Positions 6,213-63,478 of a DNA stretch of 64,000 nucleotides are shown here, piece by piece. Position numbers and translations under genes: made by a program. Under the pieces are notes generated by a model. That model saw only the letters and a program-made list of their open reading frames with translations. It made no database searches and was not told the origin of the DNA. This stretch comes from a virus: IMG/VR virus record IMGVR_UViG_3300047552_001097, positions 1 to 64,000 of that record, one strand, 5' to 3'. The stretch's first letter is position 1. Every line of letters begins with the position of its first letter.

Positions 6213-6363
6213 TATTACTTATATACAACTAGTTATATCTATATTTAATAGAGAGGGGGACTTATTAGATTGTATAAGTGAGTATTTACCTAACTCTATA
6301 TCTGTAATAAGAAGTAAGGTAAAGGTGGTTTATAAGATGATAGAGAAGCTAGAACTAGACTAA
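6115..6363 (+). CDS. Hypothetical protein, up to 82 aa, start uncertain
   Basis: The part beyond the upstream gene (about residues 33-82) has normal composition (DITYIQLVISIFNREGDLLD, then a basic helical end), so this end is probably coding. The ATG at 6115 forces a 98-bp overlap with the 123-aa gene, and later ATG codons at 6136 and 6151 are alternatives. The 3' end overlaps the stop of the giant - strand gene by 9 bp. The function is unknown. Confidence 0.45.
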   Translation: MIILYQLMSNHLMIYSCLTQQPIELDSLKIPNDITYIQLVISIFNREGDLLDCISEYLPNSISVIRSKVKVVYKMIEKLELD

Positions 6364-33251: not shown

Positions 33252-33982
33252 ATTCTTATCCAATAACTACAGCAGTACCTTCCTTACCTTTCTTATGTAG
33301 ATATATATTCAGACTATTATCTACACATCCCCTAATAATAAATCCACCTATATATCACCCTGTAACAGGAGAAAGAGTTTATATAAAGGGATATAAGTTA
33401 TTTAATGGTATAGAGACTAATCTAGGTTTATATTGTTCTATATTTCCTCACTCTACTCCTACTGATGGTATAAGTCTACCTAAACCAGCAGATACATCTA
33501 CTTCTGTTCTATTTGAGCCCCAAGGTAATGGGTATGATTTAGCAGTATACCATATAGCTCTTAAACTTCACTATAATTTTTCTATATTAGGTAATAAGGA
33601 GACTAATAATGACCTTATAGCTGTACCCTTAGATGCTGCTATACACCCATCTCAGACTCCATATGCTAGAGAGGGGTCTAGAGAGTTAGAACTATACTAC
33701 AGTCCAAGTCTATACATTATTGGTGAGTATTTAGAGTTAATACGATTAGCTATTTTAGATAAAGAACATACATTTTCTATGCCATCTGTTTTTAGAACAT
33801 CAGATATACCAAGAAATATACAGGTTCTTTATTTTAATTTAAAGACTCCACCTTGGGAGAAGGATAAGGCTTTATATTTCCATGAAGGAGAAATACTTAT
33901 TCGTATTGATTCAATCCTATCTAAAGAATGGAAGAGTCAATTTGAAGTTCCCACTGCTTCCTTCCAAGTCTCCGTTTTATAA
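33245..33982 (+). CDS. Tail terminator/neck candidate, 245 aa
   Basis: This beta-rich protein lies immediately before the sheath gene, where contractile phages usually encode the tail terminator (gp15-like) or a neck protein. Features are YHIALKLHYNFSI (a likely strand pair near 105-117), PSLYIIGEYLELIRLAI and a C-terminal SILSKEWKSQFEVPTASFQV. No family is recognised with confidence. Coupled to the upstream gene by overlap. Confidence 0.55.
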   Translation: MLDSYPITTAVPSLPFLCRYIFRLLSTHPLIINPPIYHPVTGERVYIKGYKLFNGIETNLGLYCSIFPHSTPTDGISLPKPADTSTSVLFEPQGNGYDLAVYHIALKLHYNFSILGNKETNNDLIAVPLDAAIHPSQTPYAREGSRELELYYSPSLYIIGEYLELIRLAILDKEHTFSMPSVFRTSDIPRNIQVLYFNLKTPPWEKDKALYFHEGEILIRIDSILSKEWKSQFEVPTASFQVSVL

Positions 33983-34001
33983 TCTTTATTTAATATTATT
34001 T

Positions 34002-36983
34002 ATGTCCATTCCATATATTAAATTCCATGAAGTAAATGATAGTACCTCACCTATATCTCCTAATGCTAGAAATAGAATTCTTATAGCTGGAGAGTTCTCT
34101 AGAGGACCAGCTAATGAGGTAAGGTTTATAGCTAACTATAAGGACTTCTCTGATAGATATGGTTCTGATAATGCTATAGGTTCAACAGCCTTCCAAGCTG
34201 CATGGGACCAAGGGGCTAGAGACTTTGCTCTATTAAGAGTTCTAGGAGCAGGTTCTCCAGCTAAGGGTTATATAGACTTTAATGGTTATGCCTCTAAGTC
34301 TAATGATATGGTTCTAGCTATGAGATTTATAGGGGACCCTGTTATTAGAAGTCTTAGAAAGATACCTACCTCTATTACTACAACTGGTAACTATGTAGGC
34401 TCTGTCTCTGGTAGATACTGGTTTAGAGTTGATGAGAAAGATGATAAAGGTTATTACAATGTAAAATACGTATTTGTACCTATTGGGATAGAGGGTTATA
34501 TAAACTGGTATCCACAGAGTAGAACAGACAAGAATTGGAGTGTAGACCCAACCTTTCCCTTTTCAACTATAGGTGCAGCTTTAATTCAAGAGACATCTAA
34601 TCTATCCTCTATATCATCTTCTCTTCTACAGTTAGTAGGAGCTGAGCCTATAGTGTTCTCTAACACTTGCTTAGATTTAGTACAACCAGGAATGACTTGT
34701 GGACAGGCTCAGGTTAATGGTTGGAAAGTTGTTATTGAAGTAGGGGATATGAGGTGGATATGGCATACTGATAGTGCAGGAGCTACTAAGTTACTAGATA
34801 AGAATAACTCTGGATATACAGGTAATATCCCTGTTATAGTTCCAGGTACTAATGGTGTTGCTTCCTTTAACACTATGGATGGAGTCACCCTAACCTCTAC
34901 CCAAACAGGACAGGATATACCTGCCTCTGGTCTATTTGCTAATTCTACTACTGCTGGAGCTATTAACCCATATATCATTCCAGTTACTGAATCCTTTATA
35001 TTCCATGAAGAGGATACTGGGGCTCCTATATCTGTGGATAATGGGGTGTTTGTTAGATTTGATAATGCTTCTACACAACAGTCTATTCAATTAATGAATG
35101 GGGATATGTGGACTGTTAGAGTTAACTTTGATAAGTTTGATATTCCTATTTATGATGGAGCAACCCCATCTCAAGTTGTTACTTCCATAATGGAGGTTAC
35201 TCAAGGTAGAGAGCCTATTGGGTTAGTAGAGAGAAATGAACTAGATAATGGTCTTATATTTGGTTTAGATGAGACTTTCTTTAATGGTTCTATAGGTAAT
35301 AACTATTCATATTATGTAGAACTAGCTGAACCAGATGGAGAGGTAATCACCCAAGCCTCCTTCTATAGTGGTGAGTTATATATTCAAGTTCCTATCAGAT
35401 ATGGCATATATATCAAACCAGGGGCTGTTGTTTCTTTAGTAGAGAGTGGGGGTATCTATGGGGTAGTTAATGTCTCTAACCCTTTTGACCCTAATGCTAA
35501 TAAACCTATTAGTAGAAACATCCTTAGTCCTAATACTAGAGTTACTAAGGTAGATGCTCCTATCTATGGTGGGGGTCTAGCTACTATATGGTTAGATAAA
35601 CCCGTGATATCAGACTTTGATAGTATAGGTCTATTCCATTTTGCTAATCCTAATGGTCTATCTATCTCTACCTATACTAGCTATATGGCTAAGTTTATGC
35701 AAGGTGGACAGAATGGTCCTACTAGAGCTTCTAGAGACTTATATACAATGGAGGGACTTCCCCTTGTATCTCTATTTGCTATATCAGAGGGAGCGTGGGG
35801 TAATAACTTAAGAATCTCTTTATATCCCTTTGATAACAAGTCTTTTAGATTAATGATAGTAGACCTTAATAAGAATAACTTTGACCCTCCTTTAGCAGAT
35901 GAGATGTTTAATGTCTCATTCGATAGGATAGATGAGCAGGGTGGACTTATAGACCTTTCTACATCTAAGTTTATAAGAGGGGTATTTCTACCTAAGTATA
36001 TTAACAGAAACTTTAATGTTTCATTATTAAGAAAGAGTCCTATGAGGTTAGCTGCACCTGATGATACAGCTACTGACCCTTCAGACTTTGCACATCCTGA
36101 GATGTTTGGTCCTAGAGTTCTATCTACTATTACTCTTGAAGGAGGCTTTGATGGTCCCCCACCTACTGATGCTGACTATATAAGAGCTATAGATTTATCT
36201 AAATCTAGTCCTGTTAATATGCTAGTTCTACCAGGTATATATAGTCCTGTAGTTAAACAAAGGATGATAGCTGCTGCTAATGGTGCTGATGAGTTTGAAG
36301 GTCTACGTATAGCTATACTTAATGCTCCTCCTAGATTAACTCCAGAAGCAGCTAGAGTAGAATCTATAGGTTATGACTCTAAGAGAGCAGTTCTATTAGC
36401 TGGATGGTCTACTTATGGTGGAGCTCTTAATGCTCAGAGATATGGCCTATCTCCAGATGCTCCCTATGCTGGGAAATTAGCTTCTATACCTATTTATGTA
36501 GGACCCCATGCTCGTTCTAGTAGTGGACCTGTATTTGGATTAGCTGAGGTAGATACTCAACCATACACTTCTAAAGCTCAATTAGAGATGTACCATGATG
36601 CAAGGATGGAGGTTATTATGTTAGACCCCATATCCCTATCCTTTAACTTCCTTAATGGTAGAACTACTAGTATGCTAGCTGCATGGGAGAAGGTCTCTTT
36701 TACTAGAGTAGTAGATATGATTCGTATGGACCTAGCTAGAAGTCTTAATCAATATAAGAGTGAACCTAACACTCCTAGATTAAGACAGAGGATAGCTTCT
36801 TCTATTGATGCTTATCTAGGAACTCTATTTAGAAATGGGGTTATAGCTCTATCTACTACAGCTAGTGTTAATGCTAATCCTCAGAATCCAGCAGGTATAC
36901 AAATTAGCTTCTCTGTCGTACCTGTGTACTCAGCGGATTATATAGATGTTTATATTAGTAGAGCTGATTTAGGAGTTTCATAA
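34002..36983 (+). CDS. Tail sheath protein
   Basis: The contractile sheath subunit, unusually large at about 993 aa (T4 gp18 has 659). The open frame reaches upstream to 33882, but this would overlap the previous gene by 101 bp. The ATG at 34002 (MSIPYIKFHEVND) matches the normal sheath N-terminus. Typical elements are RILIAGEFSRGP with YKDFSDRYG, and a C-terminal domain with YKSEPNTPRLRQRIASSIDAY, YLGTLFRNGVIAL and PVYSADYIDVYISR. The insert of roughly residues 150-560 is probably surface domains decorating the sheath. Confidence 0.9.
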   Translation: MSIPYIKFHEVNDSTSPISPNARNRILIAGEFSRGPANEVRFIANYKDFSDRYGSDNAIGSTAFQAAWDQGARDFALLRVLGAGSPAKGYIDFNGYASKSNDMVLAMRFIGDPVIRSLRKIPTSITTTGNYVGSVSGRYWFRVDEKDDKGYYNVKYVFVPIGIEGYINWYPQSRTDKNWSVDPTFPFSTIGAALIQETSNLSSISSSLLQLVGAEPIVFSNTCLDLVQPGMTCGQAQVNGWKVVIEVGDMRWIWHTDSAGATKLLDKNNSGYTGNIPVIVPGTNGVASFNTMDGVTLTSTQTGQDIPASGLFANSTTAGAINPYIIPVTESFIFHEEDTGAPISVDNGVFVRFDNASTQQSIQLMNGDMWTVRVNFDKFDIPIYDGATPSQVVTSIMEVTQGREPIGLVERNELDNGLIFGLDETFFNGSIGNNYSYYVELAEPDGEVITQASFYSGELYIQVPIRYGIYIKPGAVVSLVESGGIYGVVNVSNPFDPNANKPISRNILSPNTRVTKVDAPIYGGGLATIWLDKPVISDFDSIGLFHFANPNGLSISTYTSYMAKFMQGGQNGPTRASRDLYTMEGLPLVSLFAISEGAWGNNLRISLYPFDNKSFRLMIVDLNKNNFDPPLADEMFNVSFDRIDEQGGLIDLSTSKFIRGVFLPKYINRNFNVSLLRKSPMRLAAPDDTATDPSDFAHPEMFGPRVLSTITLEGGFDGPPPTDADYIRAIDLSKSSPVNMLVLPGIYSPVVKQRMIAAANGADEFEGLRIAILNAPPRLTPEAARVESIGYDSKRAVLLAGWSTYGGALNAQRYGLSPDAPYAGKLASIPIYVGPHARSSSGPVFGLAEVDTQPYTSKAQLEMYHDARMEVIMLDPISLSFNFLNGRTTSMLAAWEKVSFTRVVDMIRMDLARSLNQYKSEPNTPRLRQRIASSIDAYLGTLFRNGVIALSTTASVNANPQNPAGIQISFSVVPVYSADYIDVYISRADLGVS

Positions 36984-49905: not shown

Positions 49906-50358
49906 ATGAAAGATTTAGCTTTAAAAGATGGAGATATAAGTCTAGGTGTAAGTGAGTTAGTTCAACAAGAGTATGGAACTAGGAGAGTAAAAGACCTTTT
50001 AGTTATAGATAAAGAGACAACTCTTAAGAGATTATTAAAAAGAGCTCTAATAACTCCTATTACTTATATAGGTAGAGAGGTAATTAATTATGATGAGGGT
50101 TCTGATAGGTTAGATTTATATTATGGTAATGGATTATATCTAGAGTTATCTGAACCATTAACTCCTGAGTGGTTAGAAAGAGCCAATAGTCATATAAGAA
50201 AAGCTCTTGCATTTTTACCTCCCGATATTCAAGTAAATAATACTAAGGTAGATATTGTATCAGAGTCCTCTGTATCTATAGTAATAACATACACTTTTAA
50301 TAATCAATTAATGACTATACAAGAACTTATAGATATAAATAATCTATCTATATCTTAA
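49906..50358 (+). CDS. Baseplate wedge protein, gp25/GpW-like
   Basis: The 150-aa size, and placement immediately before the gpJ-like gene, match the gp25/GpW wedge subunit. The sequence KALAFLPPDIQVNNTKVDIV near residues 104-123 resembles the family region where a strand pair follows a helix, and LEYGN-type elements (LYYGNGLYLELSEPL) precede it. Unusually, it has an AGGAG sequence 9 bp upstream of its ATG, a rare Shine-Dalgarno here. Confidence 0.6.
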   Translation: MKDLALKDGDISLGVSELVQQEYGTRRVKDLLVIDKETTLKRLLKRALITPITYIGREVINYDEGSDRLDLYYGNGLYLELSEPLTPEWLERANSHIRKALAFLPPDIQVNNTKVDIVSESSVSIVITYTFNNQLMTIQELIDINNLSIS

Positions 50359-50364
50359 ATAAAT

Positions 50365-51420
50365 ATGATACCTAAGACTACAGAACAGATTATTCAATTA
50401 TTTAGAAAGGAGTTATCTACCTCTGGCTCTGAACTAGCTAACTTCTATAGATATAGTAATCTTCATTTAATATATAGGTCTATAGCCTCTATACTCTCAG
50501 AACAGGATACAGATATAAAGATAACAAAGGATACAGGGTTTATATCTACTAGTACCGGAGAGGATTTAGATTATATAGGTAGAGACTTTAGTGTTTATAG
50601 AGATGAAGGTAATAAGGCTAGAGGATATGTACTAGCATCCAACTCTTCTCTAATAGAGATACCTCCTGGCACTATATTAAACATTGCTTCTCAGGCTCTT
50701 CAATATGAGACCTTAGAAAGAAGGGTTCTATCAAATAACATACCTCAGAGTATACCTATAGTTTCTCTATCTAGTTCCTCTCTATATAACATTAGTGCTG
50801 GTACTGTTTTATATAACTCTATATTCCCCTCTACTTCCTTTATAGTAGGTAGATATTCCACTAATGGTAGATATTATCCAGACTTAGTAGGAGGCTCTGA
50901 TTTAGAAGAGGATGACTCCTTTAGAGATAGGATTCTAAGAAAGATTGTAGGTACAGAGTTTGGTACTTATGGAGCTATATATGATGCTGTTAAATCCCTA
51001 CCATTTATTAGCCAGGTAATAATAAAGGATTCCCTTCCTGTACCTGGCTATTTTACAGTATATATAGATACAGCAGATACTGTAAATATAAATACAGTTA
51101 GAAGACTTGTTAATAATATTAAACCTATAGGAGTGGGATTTGTTATTAGACCTATTCTCTATACAAGTTTCTCTATAGTAGCTAGAGTAAGGGTTAATAG
51201 AATAGAGGAGGGGGTTCTTAATAATATAAAGACTAGAATAAGGGATTTAACTACAAATCTAAGGGTAGATGAACATTTATCTAGGGATTCTATTCTTGCA
51301 TCTATTATGAGAGTTAATGGAGTTATATCTGTATCTTTAACCTCCCCTTCTGGAGATTTAATACCAGCCTCTCAACAGGTGGTATCTATAGATAATATCC
51401 AAATAGATTTATATGAATAA
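50365..51420 (+). CDS. Baseplate J-like protein (gp6-like wedge)
   Basis: This has the baseplate J pattern at 351 aa: EIPPGTILNIASQALQYETL, GGSDLEEDDSFRDRIL (around 178-193), GTYGAIYDAVKSLPFISQVI and a repeat-like beta C-terminus. J/gp6 proteins form the baseplate ring that holds the wedge together. Starts 6 bp after the gp25-like gene in an AAATATG context, with the gpI-position gene following. Confidence 0.85.
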   Translation: MIPKTTEQIIQLFRKELSTSGSELANFYRYSNLHLIYRSIASILSEQDTDIKITKDTGFISTSTGEDLDYIGRDFSVYRDEGNKARGYVLASNSSLIEIPPGTILNIASQALQYETLERRVLSNNIPQSIPIVSLSSSSLYNISAGTVLYNSIFPSTSFIVGRYSTNGRYYPDLVGGSDLEEDDSFRDRILRKIVGTEFGTYGAIYDAVKSLPFISQVIIKDSLPVPGYFTVYIDTADTVNINTVRRLVNNIKPIGVGFVIRPILYTSFSIVARVRVNRIEEGVLNNIKTRIRDLTTNLRVDEHLSRDSILASIMRVNGVISVSLTSPSGDLIPASQQVVSIDNIQIDLYE

Positions 51421-51425
51421 AATAT

Positions 51426-54400
51426 ATGCTTACTTGTATTGAAGCACTAGAGAAAATAAGTTCCCTATCTGGATTAGATTTAGATGAATCTATAGATATT
51501 TCAATAGAGTCTGGGAATCAGTATAGTTCTATTAATTATATATCTGGTTATATCAAGGGATTAGATAATGGAACTTCCTTTTCTAATTATGAGAGTGGGG
51601 TATATGAGAAAGAATGTTCTATATCTACTGGTATGTGGGTATATAAAGATAAGGTAGTTACAGATAACTCCTGGTGTTTGAAAGACTGTTATGAGCCTTA
51701 TACCCCTATATGTAAGACTAAGGAACCCATCTATATAGACTATATATATGAACCAGATGTCTTTGAATCCAACACTTATGAACAGAGGTTAATATATAAA
51801 GAATCTTTTAAACCCTGTGGATGGGTAGATACTCCAGAACCATATATCCCTACTTATGAAATCTATAACTCTATATATGAACAAGGTAACTCTATCCTTA
51901 ATCAATATTCAATCTCTAAAGGTTTAATCCCTATAGAGATATATGATAACTGCTATGAAACTTGTTATCAAACAGAGACTATAGAGTTAGATAGAGAGTA
52001 TTCATTTGTTATAAATAAGTCCACTTGCTATGAAGAGGGGGTCTATGAGAATTGTTATACAGAGGGTTATTTTGTATATTGGCAGACTTCTTTTATATAT
52101 GAAGAATCCTGCTATGACTCTTGTACAGTTAATAGTTTATTTCCTTTATTCTTCTTTACTAGAAGACAGGATACATGGTTATTAGAAGATGTCTTTTGTA
52201 AGGATATAAATACACCTACTAGATATATAGATAATGATGGTCATCTTATTAATATTGAAGTATCTAGTTGTATAGATAAAGAACCATTACTCTGGAATGA
52301 TGATTTATTAATAGACCAAGACTGGTTAGAGTCTGATGGTAGTAGCTGCTTTGATAACTGCTATGAAAAGAGATATTACTATTATGATGAGGATAGGTAT
52401 GTATACCAAGAAGGAGTTTATGAAAGTGGTGTATATACTAAAAGAGCTCTTCTAATGTCTCTTCCCTTTATGGATGTCCAATGTCCAACCTGTAATATAT
52501 CTTCTAATTGTTTAGTATCTTTCTTAGGGAATATTATTCTAGAGCATCATTATAATTTAGAGGTAAGGGGAATGACAAGAGTACAGGATTACTTATATAG
52601 TAAATCTAGACCTCTAGAGATATTAGATTCTTGTTGTACTAGACCCTATGTAGTTAATGACCAGCTCGTAAGGATTAATGGAGATGTTATAGAGATATTC
52701 CAAGAGGGTTTATTAAAAGATGATTATCTTTATTCATTAGATATTGGATACACTATAGAGAGTACCAATGAGTTTATCCCTATTCAATCTAATGTTCCTA
52801 TATCCCTTAATGGTTTCTACTCTTTATCTAGCTATATACCAGAGGGGATTAAGACTTTAATTCTATATAAATCTAATTATTACTTTAAGAAGGAAGTAGT
52901 AAGATTCTATGGAGCTTCATCTTCTAATCAATTTCTTATTCAGGATTCTTTATCTTTATTTAATAGTGTAACTAATACAACTACTATTGAGGATATAAGT
53001 ATATCTCTTATATTGTTACTATTATCTTCTTATAAAGAGTCTAAACCTTGTTCTACAGTTATATCTTTTAAGTCTTTACATCCATATATAAAGTCAGTTA
53101 TAGATAATAATCTAGACATTCTATCTACATTAATTGATAACTCTAATGATAAAAGAAGGGGTTCTATACCTAAGCAAGTAAGGTCTAATACTAAGCCAGA
53201 ACATATATATGATGATAGTTATTATCTAGAAAAGAGGGTTATTACTTGTTATGAAGAGGGGGTTTATAGTAATAAATGCGACTTCTTATGGGATGAATCC
53301 TTGATTATTGGGGATGAAATGTACTGTTTATCTAGTTGTTTTAAGGAATCTATACTGGATTTCTCTATTAATAGAGAGGTGGATAATAGGTCTATAGCCT
53401 GGTTATTACTTGCCTATCTAACATATACAGAGGTTATTAATACAAATAAATATCAGTCTTCTATTGATTTATTATATGAATATCTCATTTCAGAAATAGA
53501 TTATACTAATAAATTTATATATAAAGGTTACTCTCATTCTGATATATATAGTAATTCCACTAGGTTAGAACTGATAGATACTTCCACTAACATAGCTGTT
53601 TGTATAGCCCTACTAAAGCATTATTCAGTAACATCTAACTCAATATCCCTACTTTATGCCTCTAAACTAAAGAGATATATCTATCAATACCTTTATTCTA
53701 GAGATGATAACTTATTCATGGATGAAGGTTACTTTACTTTAGATAGTAATTTATATGGTCTATGGCTATCTTTAGAAGTTAATGAAGCCCCTGCTGTAGA
53801 GACTATATTAGACTTCTTTACAACTAGTCTTAATGAAGTATCTACTAATGTATCTATAAAGATAGATACTATAGATAATGAAGATATTCTTTTATTAGAT
53901 AACTCCTATATCTATACAAATATAGAATCTATATCCTTAAGAAATAATATAAAGGTTAATAATCTTTTATACTATCTGTTTAACTACTCTTTACAACAAG
54001 GCTATACCCACTCCTTCTTTATATTTAAAGATACAAGTCTAGATAGTAATATAGGTATTGCTAGTTGTTTATCTGATAGTTTATTTGAACATGAGTTGTT
54101 TAGAACTTATGGATATGAAGATATAGAAGTTTTAGAGACTAGTGAAGCTCTAATAGAAAATAGATTAAGGGATATGATGCCTATAGGATTTGACTGGTTT
54201 AGTAGAGAATCTTTAACTAGACAAGGAAATATAGGTAATCTCTTAGGCTCTGTAAGTGGAAGTTTAGCTCTTAATAATGTTTCTATAAAGAGAATAAAGG
54301 ATTCTATATCTTTAACTAATAGTAGGACTTATTCTATTAAGAGATGGGAACAGGATTTGAAAATGGTTAGATGGGAGTCTGAGACCTATACAGAATACAA

Positions 54401-54950
54401 GGATAGAGTGAGAAAGTTTATAAATAAGCCGTATATTATAAATCAAGCTATTCCTTATTTATTAAGTTTATATAAAATTGATGTAAAAAAACAATGGGAT
54501 TGGAGTAGTAATATTACAAATAAATATAATTCTTTGTTCTTCTCTACTTCTAATGCTTATATTCAAGAAACAGATACAGTTATTAACACTCATATACTAG
54601 TAGTTAATTTCCCTATAACTCCCTCTCTTTATAGGTCTATAGAAGAGGTTAAACCTATAGGAACAAAGGTTATATTTGATTGGCAGTTAGATATAGAAAC
54701 TTGTTTAATAGAACAAGAGTTAGAACCCTCTATAGTAGACCTTTCTACTGTTCAGAGAATACCTTCTTATTTCATAAATGAAGTATGTTGTAGTAGTAAT
54801 AGTTGTAGAGTCTTAATGAAGATAGAACTAGAGTTTGCTGTTCCCTACCCTCTTTATTTAAATAAGGATTCTATTCTAGGTCTAGAACAAGAAAGTGATA
54901 ATCTAACTATTATAAGGGCTAATAATCTTTATAGTTATTTTTATAAGTAA
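51426..54950 (+). CDS. Large Cys-rich baseplate protein (gpI position), 1,174 aa
   Basis: It follows the gpJ-like gene, where gpI/tail-fibre connector proteins normally lie, but is far longer. A module recurs near residues 68-90, 288-320 and 620-640: W-x2-D-x-L/V-x2-D-x-W followed by CY or CF and E. There are many CYE/GVY units. Residues about 650-800 are helical repeats (TSTNIAVCIALLKHYSVTSN, LYSRDDNLFMDEGYF) resembling an alpha/alpha toroid, as in some glycoside-acting enzymes, though no catalytic motif is evident. The C-terminal region includes PIGFDWFSRESLTRQGNIGN. Possible receptor-binding arms; uncertain. Confidence 0.75.
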   Translation: MLTCIEALEKISSLSGLDLDESIDISIESGNQYSSINYISGYIKGLDNGTSFSNYESGVYEKECSISTGMWVYKDKVVTDNSWCLKDCYEPYTPICKTKEPIYIDYIYEPDVFESNTYEQRLIYKESFKPCGWVDTPEPYIPTYEIYNSIYEQGNSILNQYSISKGLIPIEIYDNCYETCYQTETIELDREYSFVINKSTCYEEGVYENCYTEGYFVYWQTSFIYEESCYDSCTVNSLFPLFFFTRRQDTWLLEDVFCKDINTPTRYIDNDGHLINIEVSSCIDKEPLLWNDDLLIDQDWLESDGSSCFDNCYEKRYYYYDEDRYVYQEGVYESGVYTKRALLMSLPFMDVQCPTCNISSNCLVSFLGNIILEHHYNLEVRGMTRVQDYLYSKSRPLEILDSCCTRPYVVNDQLVRINGDVIEIFQEGLLKDDYLYSLDIGYTIESTNEFIPIQSNVPISLNGFYSLSSYIPEGIKTLILYKSNYYFKKEVVRFYGASSSNQFLIQDSLSLFNSVTNTTTIEDISISLILLLLSSYKESKPCSTVISFKSLHPYIKSVIDNNLDILSTLIDNSNDKRRGSIPKQVRSNTKPEHIYDDSYYLEKRVITCYEEGVYSNKCDFLWDESLIIGDEMYCLSSCFKESILDFSINREVDNRSIAWLLLAYLTYTEVINTNKYQSSIDLLYEYLISEIDYTNKFIYKGYSHSDIYSNSTRLELIDTSTNIAVCIALLKHYSVTSNSISLLYASKLKRYIYQYLYSRDDNLFMDEGYFTLDSNLYGLWLSLEVNEAPAVETILDFFTTSLNEVSTNVSIKIDTIDNEDILLLDNSYIYTNIESISLRNNIKVNNLLYYLFNYSLQQGYTHSFFIFKDTSLDSNIGIASCLSDSLFEHELFRTYGYEDIEVLETSEALIENRLRDMMPIGFDWFSRESLTRQGNIGNLLGSVSGSLALNNVSIKRIKDSISLTNSRTYSIKRWEQDLKMVRWESETYTEYKDRVRKFINKPYIINQAIPYLLSLYKIDVKKQWDWSSNITNKYNSLFFSTSNAYIQETDTVINTHILVVNFPITPSLYRSIEEVKPIGTKVIFDWQLDIETCLIEQELEPSIVDLSTVQRIPSYFINEVCCSSNSCRVLMKIELEFAVPYPLYLNKDSILGLEQESDNLTIIRANNLYSYFYK

Positions 54951-54988: not shown

Positions 54989-56095
54989 ATGTTTGATTTA
55001 ATAATTGTAGGGGCTGGACCTAGGGGTATAGGTTTAGCCCTTCAAGCTATAGAGAGAAGTTTATCTGTACTAATAATAGACCCAGAACCTTTATCTACTT
55101 GGAGGAATATCCCAATAGATATAAATATGAGAAGTCCTATAGGATTTGATTTAGTATCCTTTATGCCAGAGTATAGACAATATAGTTTATCAACTTATCT
55201 AGGTTCTTATCAAGAGTTTAATAATCAAGAGGATATAGAAAGGTCTACGAGTGTAGTAACTAGACAGCACTTTATTAACTATATGGAGTTTATGTGGAGT
55301 AGAGTTTTATCTATATGTAGTTATAAACAGGACAAGGTTATTAACATATGGCCTAATAAAGTTATGACTACTAAGGAAGTATATAGAGGTAAGAATGTGG
55401 TTATAGCCTATTCCCCTATTAAGGCTAAGAACCCTAATTGGTTGAATCTAGAGTTAAAGAGAAAGCTAGTTACTGCTAAGGATATAGATTCTATAAATAA
55501 CTCTCTTATCTGGGTTATAGGTAGTGGACAAAGTGCCGCAGAGTATGTTTATTCTTTATGTTCTAAAGGTAATACAGTCTATTGGTTTAATAAGAAAACT
55601 CCTAGAGTAGACCAGTACCCTGCGCCTAGTTATAATCATTGGGGTTATAAGAGTGCTCTAGGCCCTTACTATAGGAGTATTAAAGAGAATAAGGAGGCAG
55701 CTATGAGATATATGAAGGATATAAAGAGATGGCAACCATCTATTACTCCAGATATAGATACTAAGTTATCTACAGTTAAAGATAGATATAAGGTTATACT
55801 AGATAACCCCTCTTCTATAGAGGTAAATATGGATTATATTTTTCTATGTAATGGAGTTAACTCTAGTGTTGATTTAGTACCATTAGCCTTACCAGTAGAT
55901 AGACATATTTATAACAATGATTTACCTCTTTTACATACAGGATTTAGAAGCTCCTTATCTAACGAAAGGAGTGGAGGGAAGGGGGGTTATATCTTTACAG
56001 GGTTACTGGCTTCTTTATATGATGGACCTAGGCAAGGAAGTTTAATCTCTATAGGGTTAACATCTAAAGAGATATTAGATAATATTAATTTATAA
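54989..56095 (+). CDS. FAD/NAD(P)-dependent oxidoreductase
   Basis: Two dinucleotide-binding motifs are clear: GAGPRG at 8-13 for FAD, followed by an acidic strand end (VLIIDPEP), and GSGQSAAEY from G178 for NAD(P)H. The pattern DINMRSPIGFDL and TRQHFINYMEFMW is like flavin monooxygenases and the SidA/IucD/PvdA group. Near the end is LLHTGFRSSLSNERSGGKGG. The 368-aa length fits a stand-alone enzyme. It lies between two baseplate genes in the same operon, with no obvious horizontal-transfer signature. It could modify a host metabolite, a tail component, or be incorporated in the virion. Confidence 0.8.
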   Translation: MFDLIIVGAGPRGIGLALQAIERSLSVLIIDPEPLSTWRNIPIDINMRSPIGFDLVSFMPEYRQYSLSTYLGSYQEFNNQEDIERSTSVVTRQHFINYMEFMWSRVLSICSYKQDKVINIWPNKVMTTKEVYRGKNVVIAYSPIKAKNPNWLNLELKRKLVTAKDIDSINNSLIWVIGSGQSAAEYVYSLCSKGNTVYWFNKKTPRVDQYPAPSYNHWGYKSALGPYYRSIKENKEAAMRYMKDIKRWQPSITPDIDTKLSTVKDRYKVILDNPSSIEVNMDYIFLCNGVNSSVDLVPLALPVDRHIYNNDLPLLHTGFRSSLSNERSGGKGGYIFTGLLASLYDGPRQGSLISIGLTSKEILDNINL

Positions 56096-56099
56096 ATCT

Positions 56100-56603
56100 A
56101 TGGATAAGTATGAGTTTAACTTAAGAGATACTACCACTTATATATCTAGATATAAGAGGTTATTAGTTTATTTAGAGGGTTCCCCTAGTTTTTATATAGG
56201 AATAGGTTATTCTTCTGAGGCTAATAGTATTAACCCTTCTGAGAGTTTAGAGGATATAAAGGGGTTAATAGGTATAAGAAAGATTAATAAATTAATTCTA
56301 GTAAAAGAATCTTCCTGTGGTTCATATAAGATAAATAATAGATTATGGGAAGAGGATAATACTAAACCTACACATCTTTATATCAATGCTTTTATTAATA
56401 GAGATGACTTTAACTTCTCTTTCTTTAATATTATTGGTATTATAAGTAATCCTATTTTTAATGTAGAAAATAATAAGGATATCTATACTTCTTTAGAAGT
56501 TGTTAATCCAGGTATACTTCATTGGGTGGCTTATATGACTACTATTTCTAGATTAGAAATAACTTATAAATTACCAGAACTTAATCTTTTAATTAAAATA
56601 TAA
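56100..56603 (+). CDS. Hypothetical baseplate/fibre-region protein, 167 aa
   Basis: Beta-rich protein, not recognised. It begins FNLRDTTTYISRYKRLLVYL and ends HWVAYMTTISRLEITYKLPE, which has the look of a virion protein. It lies 4 bp after the oxidoreductase stop and 2 bp before the DUF4815-like gene. Tail peripheral structure is the likely place, by context only. Confidence 0.65.
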   Translation: MDKYEFNLRDTTTYISRYKRLLVYLEGSPSFYIGIGYSSEANSINPSESLEDIKGLIGIRKINKLILVKESSCGSYKINNRLWEEDNTKPTHLYINAFINRDDFNFSFFNIIGIISNPIFNVENNKDIYTSLEVVNPGILHWVAYMTTISRLEITYKLPELNLLIKI

Positions 56604-56605
56604 TT

Positions 56606-59600
56606 ATGAACTTATATAAGTATAAAGAGAACTCTTTATATAAAGATAGATTTACTCCTGATTCTAATTGGTTAAAGGTTCTATTTACTCCTGGAAGACC
56701 TGTTCAAAGTGCTGAACTTATAGAGCTTCAATCTATTATTAGACATAGTTATAAGCTAGGGATGGATAAGGTTCTAGGAGCTTTATCTATAGTTCAAGGT
56801 CTGAACTATACTCTTTCTATAGAGGAAGACACCACTTTTATATCTATATCAGAAGGAATAATATATACAGAAGGCTCTTTTATACCAGTTAAATCTAAGG
56901 ATTTAGAGTTTAGTCTTAATGAAGAGGTCTCTATTGGAGTTTTATTAAATGAAGTTATTATTACAGAGAATGAAGATAACTCTCTTAAATCTAACCATCC
57001 TTATGGTTTACCAGGAGCCCATAGACTAGTTTGGGAAGGAGATATCACTCTTAATAATCCCTTATCCTTTGAGATATATAGATATGAGAAGGGAGAAATA
57101 ATTCAATCTAATAATTATCCCTTTAAAGAATTACTATCTGAGATATCTACTTTTATAGATTCTATATATGGTTCCTTCCTTTTATATGGATTAAAAACCT
57201 CTTTTATCTCTACACAAGAACCCTTATCTGAATCTATTACTGTAGATAACTCTAGCCTTATATCTGATATAAACTCGATTGAATCTCAAATATCCTCTTT
57301 GAAGATAAGGAAGAGAGACCTGGAATCCTCTATTAATCAACTAATATCAAGTAACTTATCTAGTAATTTAATCCTAGCTGAGACCTATATTCAACAACTA
57401 AGAGAGGCTAATCAAGAAGAAACTACCCTTTCTAACTCTCTATTAGAAAAGAGAATAGCTTTATCTAGATTAATAGAGCGTAATCCTATTAACTCTAGGA
57501 GTATAGTTAATTTATCTATTAGTCCAGGTTCAGCTTTTGTAAAAGGATATAAAACTATTAAACCATACCCATCCCTTATTCAATATCCTTATTCTATAGA
57601 GACTAAAGAGGTTAAAGGAGCTAGGTTTATTAATAGCTCAACCTATATTCCATCTAAGTTATCTCTTATACCTTCTATAGATTATGCAACTATAAAGGCA
57701 GCTTCTATTAATATATCTATTAAGTTTAATCAAATTATATTTAATAATCAGCTTGTAGATGTTGTTATACAAGCAAATACATCTTCTTTTTTATCTATAG
57801 AAGATATTATTAATAGCATAAGTGCTTTTGAATTAAGCTCTTTAACCCTTACTTCTACAGTATTGAATCAGGCTAATATTTCCTTATCTCCTATAGAAAT
57901 AAAACAATTATTATCTCTTAACTTTAATATTACAAAGACTAACTCTAATTCTATAACTATTCAAATAAAGGATTCAAGCTCTAGAACTTCTATTAGATTA
58001 GATACTTATTCTAGTTCTCAGTATTTATCTTGGAGTCAATCTACTAGTTTTAGTTCTATTAGTAATATAAATAGATATCTATTACCTAGTGTAAATGTTA
58101 GTAAGATAACTAGAATAGTAGGAGAGTTAAAAGCTGATGGCTATAGATTAACTAGAGGGGAGTCTAATAGAGATTTTCTAGGAGAGGATTCTATATTCTC
58201 TTTACTATTAGTTTATCAGGATAATACTATTTATATTCCAGGAGTGGATTATCGATTAGATACTCAACAATATATTAATTGGATAGGTAATAAACCTCAA
58301 CCCGGAGATTCTTATTATGTAAATTATATGTATACAGAAGAATTATCAAAAGATGAGTATTCTATATCTAATAATGAAATATTAATTAATATCCCTATTC
58401 CCCCCGGTTATGGGTTTGAAGTAGATTATCTCTATTCCATAGATAAGAAACTAACTGTAACTATAGATACTAATTCAGATATAGAAATCTATGAGACTTC
58501 TATACCGGAAGGGGTTCTCTCTCTATCTAATGTCTATATAAAAGGGAAGGAAGTAGAAGTAGTTGAACTAGATAATAAAATTCCTTCTCTATCAGATATA
58601 TATTTATTATCTCAACAAGTAGACCAACATACTAATCTTCTTAATACTCTTTTATCTAATCAAGAACAATATCTTGATAATCAAGAGAATAACCTATTGG
58701 CAACTTGGAATATAGATTTATCTACTTTTAATGATATTGATATAGATTTAACTACAGGGGCTATAGATGTATTTATTAAATCTTTTAATCCTTCATTTAG
58801 AACAAAAGAGATATCTATATTAGCTAATGACTGTTACAAGGATAAATTAAATCTATGTAAGTTCTACACTTTACCTTTTATATCTATACCTTTTATATCT
58901 AATAATAGAGCTACTAGGTATATATCTAGTTATGGCTATAGTAATATATCTACTTATATTTATCCAGCTTTTCTATGGGCTAATAATGATAGTTCTTATC
59001 CTTATCTTGCTAATAATGAAAATGTAGAGGGGGAAATAACCTGTTCTATATATAAGGAAATGAATGAAATATTAGATTCTATAGATAGTAAATACTCTGT
59101 AGATACTTATAATCCTTTAGGTAATATAGTTCCAATAGAGTATACCTTTTACCTTTTAGTAGAAGGCTTATTAACATATGAAGATGGAATAACTATTCTT
59201 TTTGATTCTAAATCTATACCTTCTATTAATCTTATTAAAGGTTCTGTAATTAATAATATATTAAGAGCTGATGTTAATGGCGTTATATACCTATCTTTAC
59301 TTATATCTATACCCCAGCCTGGTAATTATTTAATATCTATATTTAACTCTAGATTTAATAAATCTATTAATTTACCTATATACAATAGTTATGAGTTACC
59401 TATATATAACAATTTAAGTAAGTATGATTATAGAAGTAGAAAGAGAGAGATAGAAATTAATAATGAGGGAGTTACTACTTCTTTTAGTGCTATAAATCAA
59501 TACTTTAATACAACTAGGGACTTCTTTATAACTAAACTAGAACTTAGATTAAGAGAAATTGGTAACAATAATTTAATAGTTGGTATAGATAAACTAGGTC

Positions 59601-60511
59601 TAAATAGTATTCCAGAATTAAGGTTAGTGGAATCTAAACCTAATGATTATTATTACTCAAACGACTCTTCTGCTATTACAACTACAGAATTTCTATATCC
59701 TACTTTGATAAATAAAGGAGATTATTCTATTGGAATAGATGGAGAAGAATATAAATTATACGCTTCTTTTAATCAAGAGAAGGATTATCTTACTGGTTCT
59801 TTATTTAACTCCTATAGTTTATTATCTCAAGATAGGTTATTTATTAGTAAAGATGGTAAATCTACTAGTGAATTATTATATACTAATCTCTCTTATCAAA
59901 TATATAGAGCCGAGTTTATAGTAGGTTCTAGTGTATATATTCCTTTAGGGGTCTACGGTTTATCTAATGGATTTACTAATATAAGTCATTTTTCTTATAA
60001 TACTAAGGATATAGTACCCCCAGGAACCCTTATTCAATATGAATATAAAACAAGTTCAGATTGGATTCCCTTTAAATCTAATACTATAACTAGACTTATT
60101 TCCATAGCTCCTTCTATAGAGTTAAGAGTTTTAATTAATTCATCTTCTTCCTTTGTATCTCCAATAGTAAATATAGAAGGTTCTACTATAGCTTTATACT
60201 CCGATAATTCTACTTATAAGTTATATACAGAGAGCAAATCCTTTCCCTTTACCTTTAATAAAGTTGTAGTTAAAGTAGATATATATAACAAGAAGGATGA
60301 AGATACTTTATCTTTATATAACTTAAAGACATTAAATAATGAGATTCAGTCTCTTCAATTTGTATCTTCTATTAATAGAAATACCTATATAACCAGTGAG
60401 TATAAGCTGGAACAAGGTTCTTTAGATACTCTAAATCTAGTTTTTGATTGTTATTCCCCTGGTATTGATAAGTTAATCCTAAGAAATATAAGAGTATATA
60501 TATATGGATAA
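56606..60511 (+). CDS. DUF4815-like large tail protein, 1,301 aa
   Basis: The N-terminus shows the DUF4815 pattern: a Tyr/Phe-rich start, LKVLFTPGRPVQSAELIEL near 23-41, then IIRHSYKLGMDKVLGAL and a repeating ISISEGIIYTEGSFIPV. This domain occurs at the N-terminus of large phage baseplate/fibre connector proteins. A coiled coil lies near 220-290 (IESQISSLKIRKRDLESSI, LREANQEETTL). The rest is beta-rich. The gene overlaps the next by 8 bp. Likely a peripheral baseplate or long-fibre base. Confidence 0.75.
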   Translation: MNLYKYKENSLYKDRFTPDSNWLKVLFTPGRPVQSAELIELQSIIRHSYKLGMDKVLGALSIVQGLNYTLSIEEDTTFISISEGIIYTEGSFIPVKSKDLEFSLNEEVSIGVLLNEVIITENEDNSLKSNHPYGLPGAHRLVWEGDITLNNPLSFEIYRYEKGEIIQSNNYPFKELLSEISTFIDSIYGSFLLYGLKTSFISTQEPLSESITVDNSSLISDINSIESQISSLKIRKRDLESSINQLISSNLSSNLILAETYIQQLREANQEETTLSNSLLEKRIALSRLIERNPINSRSIVNLSISPGSAFVKGYKTIKPYPSLIQYPYSIETKEVKGARFINSSTYIPSKLSLIPSIDYATIKAASINISIKFNQIIFNNQLVDVVIQANTSSFLSIEDIINSISAFELSSLTLTSTVLNQANISLSPIEIKQLLSLNFNITKTNSNSITIQIKDSSSRTSIRLDTYSSSQYLSWSQSTSFSSISNINRYLLPSVNVSKITRIVGELKADGYRLTRGESNRDFLGEDSIFSLLLVYQDNTIYIPGVDYRLDTQQYINWIGNKPQPGDSYYVNYMYTEELSKDEYSISNNEILINIPIPPGYGFEVDYLYSIDKKLTVTIDTNSDIEIYETSIPEGVLSLSNVYIKGKEVEVVELDNKIPSLSDIYLLSQQVDQHTNLLNTLLSNQEQYLDNQENNLLATWNIDLSTFNDIDIDLTTGAIDVFIKSFNPSFRTKEISILANDCYKDKLNLCKFYTLPFISIPFISNNRATRYISSYGYSNISTYIYPAFLWANNDSSYPYLANNENVEGEITCSIYKEMNEILDSIDSKYSVDTYNPLGNIVPIEYTFYLLVEGLLTYEDGITILFDSKSIPSINLIKGSVINNILRADVNGVIYLSLLISIPQPGNYLISIFNSRFNKSINLPIYNSYELPIYNNLSKYDYRSRKREIEINNEGVTTSFSAINQYFNTTRDFFITKLELRLREIGNNNLIVGIDKLGLNSIPELRLVESKPNDYYYSNDSSAITTTEFLYPTLINKGDYSIGIDGEEYKLYASFNQEKDYLTGSLFNSYSLLSQDRLFISKDGKSTSELLYTNLSYQIYRAEFIVGSSVYIPLGVYGLSNGFTNISHFSYNTKDIVPPGTLIQYEYKTSSDWIPFKSNTITRLISIAPSIELRVLINSSSSFVSPIVNIEGSTIALYSDNSTYKLYTESKSFPFTFNKVVVKVDIYNKKDEDTLSLYNLKTLNNEIQSLQFVSSINRNTYITSEYKLEQGSLDTLNLVFDCYSPGIDKLILRNIRVYIYG

Positions 60512-62750
60512 TAAAATATTGTTCCAAGAAGGTACTAGTTTAACTTTTCTAAATAGGGTTCAAGATACTTTGAATCAAGACCTTTATACTCTTTTTAATA
60601 CTCTATACTCTGTTTTCTTATATATAAATAAACCTTTAGTTGTTATAGAAGAAGATAAAGGAAGAGTCTTTGTATCCTCTGGTTCTATTTATATCTATCT
60701 AGATAAGGGTTATTTTATTAACTTCCCCTCTTCTTATATACCTATAAGATCTAATAACTTTATTATTGGGTTATCTATTAGAACTATAGAAGAACCTAGT
60801 GGGGACCCTCAATTAGAAGATATACCCCTTTCCTCTGTTCTAGGTTCATCTAAATTAGTTATTGAATCCACCGTTTCATCCTTTCAATCTTCTAATGATG
60901 TTATTCCAATAGCCTTTATAGAAGATAATAAAGTTGTTTATATTCCTAATAGATACTCTAATATTCAATCTACTATTTATGAATATTGGAGTTCTATTTT
61001 TGGATTATATATATCTAAGGGATTCTATTACTCAATTATTGATAATAAAATAAAGATTTCTCCTGGGTTGGCATATATAAATCAATTAGTTATAGTAAGA
61101 GTTCCCACTATATTAGAGTTAAAACCTGGGAATATTATGTTAAACTCTCTAGGTGATATTTATTATGAAGAGCCTGTTACTATACCTTTATCGGATATCT
61201 CTTATATATATTCAGACTTAGATGAGGTTATAGATAATGATTATAATTCTTTAATAGAAGTAGATGTATCTTCCTTTAGTTATATAAGTGAACCATTATC
61301 TATACCTTTATTTAATATAGATACTAATTTAAATATAATTCCCACTTCTAATAGAGTTATAGACATTAAAACTCTTAAGGAGAATATAAATATTAATACT
61401 CAATTAATAAGTAAATATCTAAATCTTTTATCTATAACTAGACAAATAAGTATTAAAAAAAGTAATTTAATAGTAGAGAGTTCTATTAAGGATACTAATA
61501 GTGACCCTTTCCATCCAGAATCTAAGTTTGAAATATCTAATAACCAGGCTATTCCTACTATAGATTATGAGAGTTTTAGTCTAACTTCCTTTGTTTCTAT
61601 TAATACCTTTAGGTCTAATGGTTGGATAATACCTCTGCATAGTAAGGATGATTCTATATCTAAACCTAAACAAGAGGAGTTAATTCTTCCACCTTTATCT
61701 AGATTTCTACTTGTATATATAAGAGGATTAGATATAAATCTTGGTTTATATCAATTAGAAATTGTATCTACTCATAGTATTCAACTAGATAGAACTCTTG
61801 TTCAATCTCTTAATATAGGTCTTTATACCTCAATAAATACTTATAGTCCAGATGAGAGAGGTAGATTATCTATAACTATAAAGACTCAACTAGCTTATAT
61901 AAAGATTAATTCTTACATATTAGAGTTAGATACAGAGCATCATCTATTAGAAAAGCAGGGTGAGGTTATATTAAAACAGATACAAGGTATAGTTTCTAGT
62001 ACAGAGGATTACTGCTGGATTACTAATAATAAAGACACTTTAGTTCCATTATCTATTAATCTAATAGGTTTTTTAAGTAAGGTTATAGATAGTAATAGTA
62101 GTTTATTTATAGTTAAATACACTTTATTTAACCAAATAGCTATAGATAAGTTCACCTCTATAAGTGATAACTATTATATTCATGGTTCTAGATTAACTCT
62201 TTATGCTAATAAAGGAATTAATATAGATTACTCAACAGTTAGATTACCAATATCTAATACTAAGTTATATATAGATATTAATAGAGAATATGAAGTTAAC
62301 TATACTAATTGGAATATAAATAAAGAGGGTTCTCTTATTTATAGGTACTTAATTGATGGCAAAGAAGTCCTTTCTATAGATAATAAGAGAAGGTTTAGAG
62401 CTGAAATAGAGATAAAACCCTTTGCTATTGTTAAGGAAAATTCTACTTTTAATATAGGTCAGACTAATGGAATTGGTATTTATATATCCAGAACTTATAG
62501 TGTAGAGATATATAAACAAGTAGAAGTTATATTAGAAGGTCTTGTATCTAATGCTTATATAAGTAGTAATGAGGGTCAAACCTGGGATGAGATGTTAACT
62601 ATAGATAATAAAACCTTTAGTATTGATAATCTCCCCCCTTTAGTTAATATAGAAAGAGGGGATGGAACTATAGAAGTCCTAGAGAGAAATACCATTAAGT
62701 TAAAGATAGAGATGACTAATCTTAAAGGTTTCTCTATATATCTATATTAG
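60504..62750 (+). CDS. Large tail fibre-region protein, 748 aa
   Basis: Beta-rich, Ser/Ile-rich protein starting ILFQEGTSLTFLNRVQDTLN. It follows the DUF4815-like gene with an 8-bp overlap and may be a partner or fibre shaft. A region around residues 60-115 (GRVFVSSGSIYIYLDKGYFI) resembles the DUF4815-type repeat, so distant relatedness to the upstream protein is possible but not shown. Confidence 0.65.
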   Translation: MDNKILFQEGTSLTFLNRVQDTLNQDLYTLFNTLYSVFLYINKPLVVIEEDKGRVFVSSGSIYIYLDKGYFINFPSSYIPIRSNNFIIGLSIRTIEEPSGDPQLEDIPLSSVLGSSKLVIESTVSSFQSSNDVIPIAFIEDNKVVYIPNRYSNIQSTIYEYWSSIFGLYISKGFYYSIIDNKIKISPGLAYINQLVIVRVPTILELKPGNIMLNSLGDIYYEEPVTIPLSDISYIYSDLDEVIDNDYNSLIEVDVSSFSYISEPLSIPLFNIDTNLNIIPTSNRVIDIKTLKENININTQLISKYLNLLSITRQISIKKSNLIVESSIKDTNSDPFHPESKFEISNNQAIPTIDYESFSLTSFVSINTFRSNGWIIPLHSKDDSISKPKQEELILPPLSRFLLVYIRGLDINLGLYQLEIVSTHSIQLDRTLVQSLNIGLYTSINTYSPDERGRLSITIKTQLAYIKINSYILELDTEHHLLEKQGEVILKQIQGIVSSTEDYCWITNNKDTLVPLSINLIGFLSKVIDSNSSLFIVKYTLFNQIAIDKFTSISDNYYIHGSRLTLYANKGINIDYSTVRLPISNTKLYIDINREYEVNYTNWNINKEGSLIYRYLIDGKEVLSIDNKRRFRAEIEIKPFAIVKENSTFNIGQTNGIGIYISRTYSVEIYKQVEVILEGLVSNAYISSNEGQTWDEMLTIDNKTFSIDNLPPLVNIERGDGTIEVLERNTIKLKIEMTNLKGFSIYLY

Positions 62751-62788: not shown

Positions 62789-62914
62789 ATGAGAATTATA
62801 AAGAGTAATAAATCAAGTCCTAGTAATGTAGTCATATATAAGAGTAATTTATATATAGAAGAATTAAAGAAAGAGATAGAAAGATTAAGGCATGATAAAT
62901 CTAGTCTAGATTAG
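62789..62914 (+). CDS. Small helical protein, 41 aa
   Basis: ATG at 62789 gives MRIIKSNKSSPSNVVIYKSN, then a charged helix LYIEELKKEIERLRHDKSSL and a TAG at 62912. The heptad-like LYIEELKKEI... helix suggests a small coiled-coil or adaptor protein. The end overlaps the stop of the convergent endonuclease gene by 9 bp. Short, so only moderately supported. Confidence 0.45.
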   Translation: MRIIKSNKSSPSNVVIYKSNLYIEELKKEIERLRHDKSSLD

Positions 62915-63478
62915 GTCTTTACTCGGTCTAAGGATGTATTCTATAACACTTTTTATTCTATTCTTTAGTTTCTTATTTTGTAAAGGTAGATCAGAGACCT
63001 TTTTTAAGTTTATAATCTTATGAACTCTTAAATATTTTTTAGGACTATCTCTATATACATGAGTTTCTATATTGAAGGGTTTAATATAAGATTGAAGAAT
63101 AAAAAGATTTTCTACATTTTTATTCTCAATTTCCATATAATGCTCTTTCTTATTATTTTTATTTTTTATATGTATAATTTGAGATTTACTATCAAAGATT
63201 CCACATATAAACCCTATGTTTCTAATCTTTTCATCTTTAAATTTATAAGTTAAATCACTTAATAAATCTATCTTATAATTAGTCTTTTTTGCAGTAGAAA
63301 TAACTAACTCAAATTCTTGGTCTAAATCTTTTAGAAAGTTTACAAATATGTCTAGAATATCCTTATCTTTTATATTAATAAGATTTTTTACTCTAGTAGC
63401 TATAAAGAAAGCTCCCTCTAACCAACCCATTTTATAATCTAAATGGTTTTCTTCAGTAAGAATAAACTTCTTTCTCAT
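62906..63478 (-). CDS. LAGLIDADG-like homing endonuclease
   Basis: Two degenerate LAGLIDADG motifs are seen in a 190-aa protein: MGWLEGAFFIATR at residues 17-29 with the acidic residue E21, and IGFICGIFDSKSQI at 87-100 with D95. The spacing (about 70 residues) and basic, lysine-rich C-terminus fit the family. It is a free-standing gene on the - strand between two tail-fibre genes, which is a typical home for phage homing endonucleases. No intron or intein was recognised next to it. Confidence 0.6.
   Translation of the reverse strand: MRKKFILTEENHLDYKMGWLEGAFFIATRVKNLINIKDKDILDIFVNFLKDLDQEFELVISTAKKTNYKIDLLSDLTYKFKDEKIRNIGFICGIFDSKSQIIHIKNKNNKKEHYMEIENKNVENLFILQSYIKPFNIETHVYRDSPKKYLRVHKIINLKKVSDLPLQNKKLKNRIKSVIEYILRPSKDLI

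Follow-up and report, generated by a model that had tools for sequence, protein, structure and literature searches.

Within the baseplate operon of the virus record IMGVR_UViG_3300047552_001097 (171,917 bases), of which we analysed a stretch of 64,000 nucleotides, here called the window, lies a genuine open reading frame (54989-56095, + strand, ATG start) that encodes a flavoprotein of 368 residues. Its best explanation, as judged from the sequence and a predicted model, is a phage-specific enzyme of the N-hydroxylating/class B monooxygenase fold that probably forms part of the baseplate-wedge module in a clade of cyanobacterial contractile-tailed phages. That this NADPH/FAD monooxygenase-like enzyme is devoted to tail assembly and oxidises one of the wedge proteins inside the infected cell is a reading to which we would give a probability of about one half. 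The enzyme family was already known by annotation (gp106 of Ma-LMM01); new here are its obligate link to a wedge-connector gene, its absence from the sampled host chromosomes, its cysteine-rich partner and a pseudoenzyme in one related contig. The operon, as found in the window, reads as follows.

49906..50358, + strand: gp25-like wedge protein, 150 aa (PF04965, E=2.5e-4, 21.2 bits, below the curated cut-off; phrog_43)
50365..51420, + strand: Baseplate J-like wedge protein, 351 aa (PF04865, E=2.5e-14)
51426..54950, + strand: large BW3-like wedge protein (T4 gp7 / P2 gpI type), 1174 aa, 32 Cys (by position and by a C-terminal domain in common with the Herelleviridae protein in this slot)
54989..56095, + strand: putative FAD/NAD(P)H-dependent monooxygenase-like flavoprotein, 368 aa, homologue of Ma-LMM01 gp106 (motifs, Pfam, PHROG, homologues, predicted fold)
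56100..56603, + strand: BW3TFN (baseplate wedge 3 / tail fibre network connector), 167 aa (PF25691, E=3.7e-6; synteny)
56606..60511, + strand: DUF4815 tail protein, 1301 aa, a conserved neighbour (PF16075, E=1.2e-44)
60504..62750, + strand: second large tail protein, 748 aa (conserved by position)

The original prediction had placed the enzyme between two large baseplate genes, with spacers of 38 bp and 4 bp. Both spacers stand, and the upstream neighbour is indeed large, but the gene 4 bp downstream is that of the small BW3TFN protein, and the large DUF4815 gene comes next, starting a further 2 bp on. The embedding of the gene in a baseplate operon was borne out by the gp25-like, Baseplate_J, BW3TFN and DUF4815 proteins around it. 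In phage A511, BW3TFN proteins join baseplate wedge protein 3 (BW3, of the T4 gp7 / P2 gpI type) to the tail-fibre network, and it is to BW3 that receptor-binding proteins attach (PMC10811340). The C-terminal part of the 1174-aa protein matches the Herelleviridae protein of the BW3 slot (141 columns, probability 90%). With this protein in the BW3 slot and BW3TFN in the role of connector, the enzyme gene thus adjoins the connector of the fibre-attachment zone.

A complete two-Rossmann FAD enzyme had been proposed, and its cofactor residues proved intact: the FAD motif is VGAGPRG (residues 7-13, containing GAGPRG) and the NAD(P)H motif IGSGQSA (residues 177-183, containing GSGQSA), a pair found at the observed spacing in none of 200,000 shuffled versions of the window protein. 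The protein matched Pyr_redox_3 (E=4.5e-14, above the curated Pfam cut-off) and Lys_Orn_oxgnase (PF13434; E=4.5e-12, 46.2 bits against a gathering score of 21.3), the latter being matched at E<=0.01 by all 11 members of alignment A4, and it matched PHROG 29209, a family of unknown function, over residues 6-366 (E=3.3e-48). Across 18 diverse homologues 38 residues were invariant, many of them within or close to both dinucleotide motifs and the C-terminal DGPR segment; the invariant set includes GxGPR, RSP..FDL, GxGQ, YPxP, P.IT and DGPR (the G of GxGPR and the S of one RSP being taken from alignments). The FMO signature FxGxxxHxxxY/F/W was absent from 19 of 19 homologues, as was a redox cysteine pair (CxxC or CxxxxC), and no column of conserved cysteine was found. 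The absence of a conserved cysteine from the enzyme led us to reject its identity as a classical thiol-disulphide oxidoreductase or thioredoxin reductase.

The predicted model of the window enzyme (pLDDT 75.8, pTM 0.77) had its best structural matches among ornithine and diamine N-hydroxylases, in agreement with Foldseek, and a search of a viral structure library gave the MaMV-DC protein as the sole full-length relative. The N-hydroxylating monooxygenases KtzI, PvdA, SidA, DfoA and putrescine N-hydroxylase aligned with Z of 22.6-24.8, KtzI being the highest (336 residues, rmsd 3.7 A). By Pfam score, by the FAD GxGxxG and NADPH GxGxxA/S motifs and by overall fold, the protein falls among these enzymes (PF13434), and its anatomy looks like that of a class B flavin monooxygenase. 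It differs from them in its low identity (15-20%), in the absence of a siderophore context around the phage gene and in length, the phage proteins being mostly 337-396 aa as compared with about 425-500 aa. The lysine in the FLKDL segment of KtzI, which we take to be the equivalent of SidA K107, the ligand of the substrate carboxylate in SidA and PvdA, aligns with Phe53 (SPIGFDL) of the window enzyme, a phenylalanine in 18 of 18 homologues, and with alanine in the cadaverine/diamine hydroxylase DfoA. At this position the protein therefore departs from the strict L-ornithine/L-lysine N-hydroxylases, and the loss of the substrate-binding lysine makes the annotated lysine/ornithine substrate doubtful.

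A tblastn search with the window enzyme gave ten phage records, all of cyanophages, at ~35% identity over 98% of the protein. The enzyme is present in the Ma-LMM01-type Microcystis phages, in which gp106 of Ma-LMM01 (35.5% identity over 98%) and ORF106 of MaMV-DC carry the label 'putative lysine/ornithine N-monooxygenase'. These PHROG 29209 members (35-37% identity over 98%) likewise stand before the BW3TFN and DUF4815 genes; gp106 (337 aa) is ~30 residues shorter than the window enzyme. Four records labelled as Acinetobacter phages gave weak matches to iucD-type genes and were rejected as members of the family. Scanning viral contigs with the window protein as a single sequence returned no matches, as did tblastn in phages with the window BW3TFN protein alone; alignments were needed, and alignment-based scans of IMG/VR supplied further lineages. 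About 20 divergent phage lineages have a homologue, mostly at 30-45% identity, immediately before BW3TFN. Neither the enzyme gene nor any baseplate flavoenzyme was the subject of a study in the literature searched, which also contained no experiments on gp106 (the text of a transcriptome paper does not name it), no description of the linkage to wedge genes and none of a phage oxidising its own tail parts during assembly.

A scan with the neighbouring DUF4815 gene, which is independent of the enzyme, gave 42 loci. The enzyme was encoded on 27 of the 28 cyanophage-type IMG/VR contigs in which the upstream region was covered, a count that excludes one uninformative contig (L056) beginning inside DUF4815. 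The exception, L034, retains the rest of the module. Thirteen more distant DUF4815 contigs had no enzyme, and the 8 of these inspected for gene order resemble a Herelleviridae record (L023), while a viral scan based on BW3 added no new contigs devoid of the enzyme. Wherever both flanks of a locus were covered, BW3TFN follows the enzyme gene immediately, at a spacing of -43 to +63 nt and usually with an overlap, whereas between the large wedge protein and the enzyme there are 0 to about 6 kb of variable genes. The Herelleviridae baseplate module (e.g. Staphylococcus phage SEP1) shares the gene order, J-like / large wedge protein / BW3TFN-like / DUF4815, but its enzyme slot is empty and its large wedge protein has no cysteine. 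Gene order in relatives, one of the checks proposed at the outset, thus showed the enzyme in nearly every relative found. To describe it as not an expected tail gene is fair for tailed phages generally, but not within this clade, where it is standard and annotated in Ma-LMM01.

It could also be envisaged that the enzyme is an auxiliary metabolic gene parked in a late operon, where it would make or degrade a small molecule of the host such as a hydroxylated amine or siderophore precursor. The fold and the Pfam match to siderophore N-hydroxylases are in keeping with such a role, as is the lysine/ornithine N-monooxygenase annotation in Ma-LMM01 and MaMV-DC, but we consider it improbable given the invariant Phe53 at the site of the KtzI substrate lysine, the fact that no siderophore genes were seen beside the enzyme, and its distribution and descent. 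Among 292 cyanobacterial genomes, a sample rather than a full search, a single one (Elainella saxicola E1) matched the enzyme at E<=1e-12, and this match lies on a 68-kb phage-like contig that carries the same baseplate genes. In plasmids, the search turned up nothing closer than distant siderophore-type monooxygenases that matched over about half the length. The enzyme was never found apart from the wedge genes, always precedes BW3TFN and is inherited together with them, its distance matrix correlating with those of three wedge-module genes (Mantel r 0.74-0.80, p=1e-4). The suggestion in the original prediction of a host-metabolism gene carried in a late operon was thus not supported, and the 'lysine/ornithine monooxygenase' label is no ground for calling this an auxiliary metabolic gene.

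Over 18 lineages the enzyme was the most conserved of the four genes compared (median identity 34.7%, against 23.8-29.2% for the three wedge-module genes), and in the Ma-LMM01 group its median dN/dS was 0.12, as compared with 0.19 and 0.20 for the next two genes, no broken copies being found there. On this sequence evidence, the enzyme is under strong purifying selection and co-inherited with its structural neighbours. In GC it mostly differs little from the contig that carries it, and as both GC and distances match the phage, a recent acquisition from a host was rejected; by the same kind of evidence it is a long-resident viral gene and not a passing host gene. The host is probably cyanobacterial, as suggested by relatives with Microcystis as host or Microcoleus in their name and by a short NblA-like match outside the window (record G000:C1:171030-171131; 22 bits, below the curated cut-off).

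The foremost alternative to an oxidising enzyme, though itself unlikely, is structural co-option, in which the flavoprotein would itself be built into the baseplate, or would act as a chaperone of its assembly, lying between the BW3 protein and the BW3TFN connector; FAD would then stabilise the fold, and catalysis would be secondary or lost. Its obligate position beside BW3TFN, with genes that usually overlap, would suit such a role, and the baseplates of contractile phages vary widely at their periphery (PMC10811340). A further case is L033, a 152-kb contig, in which the same operon slot (7293-8432) holds a full-length homologue of 379 aa with its frame intact that has lost 18 of the 38 otherwise invariant residues, including both glycines of the FAD motif, the arginine, GxGQ and DGPR. 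Its model, a confident one built from an alignment that included relatives, keeps the fold (pLDDT 89.7, Z 29.4 to KtzI). This pseudoenzyme is known from one contig, and a search for its sequence relatives returned only itself; its retention of full length and fold after the loss of FAD, NADPH and other motifs leaves room for a structural role. Against such a role, the dinucleotide motifs together with YPxP, P[ST]IT and DGPR are invariant in 18 of 19 homologues while the rest drifts to ~35% identity, and invariant, distant motifs amid such drift are the pattern of an active site. The occurrence in L034 of the rest of the module in the absence of the enzyme also argues against this role. That contig (3967-5611) lacks the enzyme as well as the large wedge (BW3-like) gene, so that the J-like gene runs straight into BW3TFN, and no match to the large wedge protein was found elsewhere in its 67 kb.

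If the protein is indeed an active enzyme of tail assembly, it would be produced in the infected cell together with the wedge proteins, bind FAD and be reduced by the NADPH of the cell. It would then activate oxygen in the form of a C4a-(hydro)peroxyflavin and oxygenate side chains in one of the wedge proteins, either ahead of baseplate assembly or while it proceeds, and the zone of tail-fibre attachment would thereby be fixed or cross-linked. The idea that the enzyme could oxidise a tail component, raised in the original prediction, survives with the cofactor motifs intact and the gene in a baseplate operon, and the predicted structure, likewise put forward as a check, retains the cofactor residues in the fold of N-hydroxylating monooxygenases.

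Foremost among the candidate substrates, though unproven, is the cysteine-rich product of the BW3-like gene just upstream (51426..54950), the thiols of which would be oxidised or joined into disulphides; the target may instead be an amine or some other side chain. In enzyme-bearing phages the BW3-slot protein has 6-50 Cys (0.9-3.8%), often in pairs of the type FExGCFxxGC, as compared with mostly 0-1% Cys in the other wedge-module proteins and 0 Cys in the three Herelleviridae-type BW3-slot proteins checked. This contrast may instead reflect host or lineage, as Herelleviridae have Gram-positive hosts and their protein is only partly homologous (141 columns). L034 has neither the BW3-slot protein nor the enzyme, L087 has the enzyme with a BW3-slot protein devoid of a close cysteine pair, and L033 has the degenerate enzyme and yet a BW3-slot protein with 22 Cys. 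In phage Milano, the disulphide-locked baseplate of which offers a likeness, a cysteine-bearing BW3 joining wedge and fibres is disulphide-linked to BW1, BW2, the spike and the fibre, and the text of that paper names no oxidoreductase, thiol oxidase or sulphhydryl oxidase (PMC10811340). As these bonds link wedge, spike and fibre, BW3 would be a sensible target for oxidation, and a disulphide-forming activity has been reported for FMO2 (PMC11645147). The specific proposal that a dedicated flavin monooxygenase oxidises BW3 cysteines to give a covalently locked baseplate, independently of the disulphide machinery of the host, is nevertheless rather doubtful. If it were true, the virus would encode an oxidative maturation step for its contractile tail, and the cysteine-rich partner and the natural exceptions L033 and L034 make the idea open to a direct test in Microcystis phages that can be cultured.

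Cyanobacterial hosts are rich in NADPH, and the gene adjoins those for tail-fibre attachment; both could speak for an effector borne by the virion, carried in the tail so as to act on the host surface, or injected early to change the redox state of the host or quench its defences. Such an effector seems highly improbable, since NADPH would be unavailable outside the cell, a 40-kDa flavoprotein would be unusual as tail cargo, and the sequence appears to hold no signal or cargo domain that would suggest delivery. Tail assembly is usually described as protein-protein self-assembly aided by chaperones and proteases, and an NADPH/FAD enzyme conserved in the wedge operon across a phage clade would imply a chemical maturation step as well.

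Some further features of the window were noted. After the second large tail gene, a 190-aa open reading frame on the opposite strand (62906-63478, - strand), with no Pfam match, has a weak counterpart at the equivalent place in another contig (L019, 18277-18843) and is possibly a homing endonuclease of the free-standing kind. A single open reading frame of 5372 aa (6355-22473, - strand), opposite in strand to the structural genes, fills about a quarter of the window. A tail-sheath-type protein (33882-36983, 1033 aa) seems rather large to be a sheath protein; only its residues 934-1023 match the sheath C-terminal domain of Pfam.
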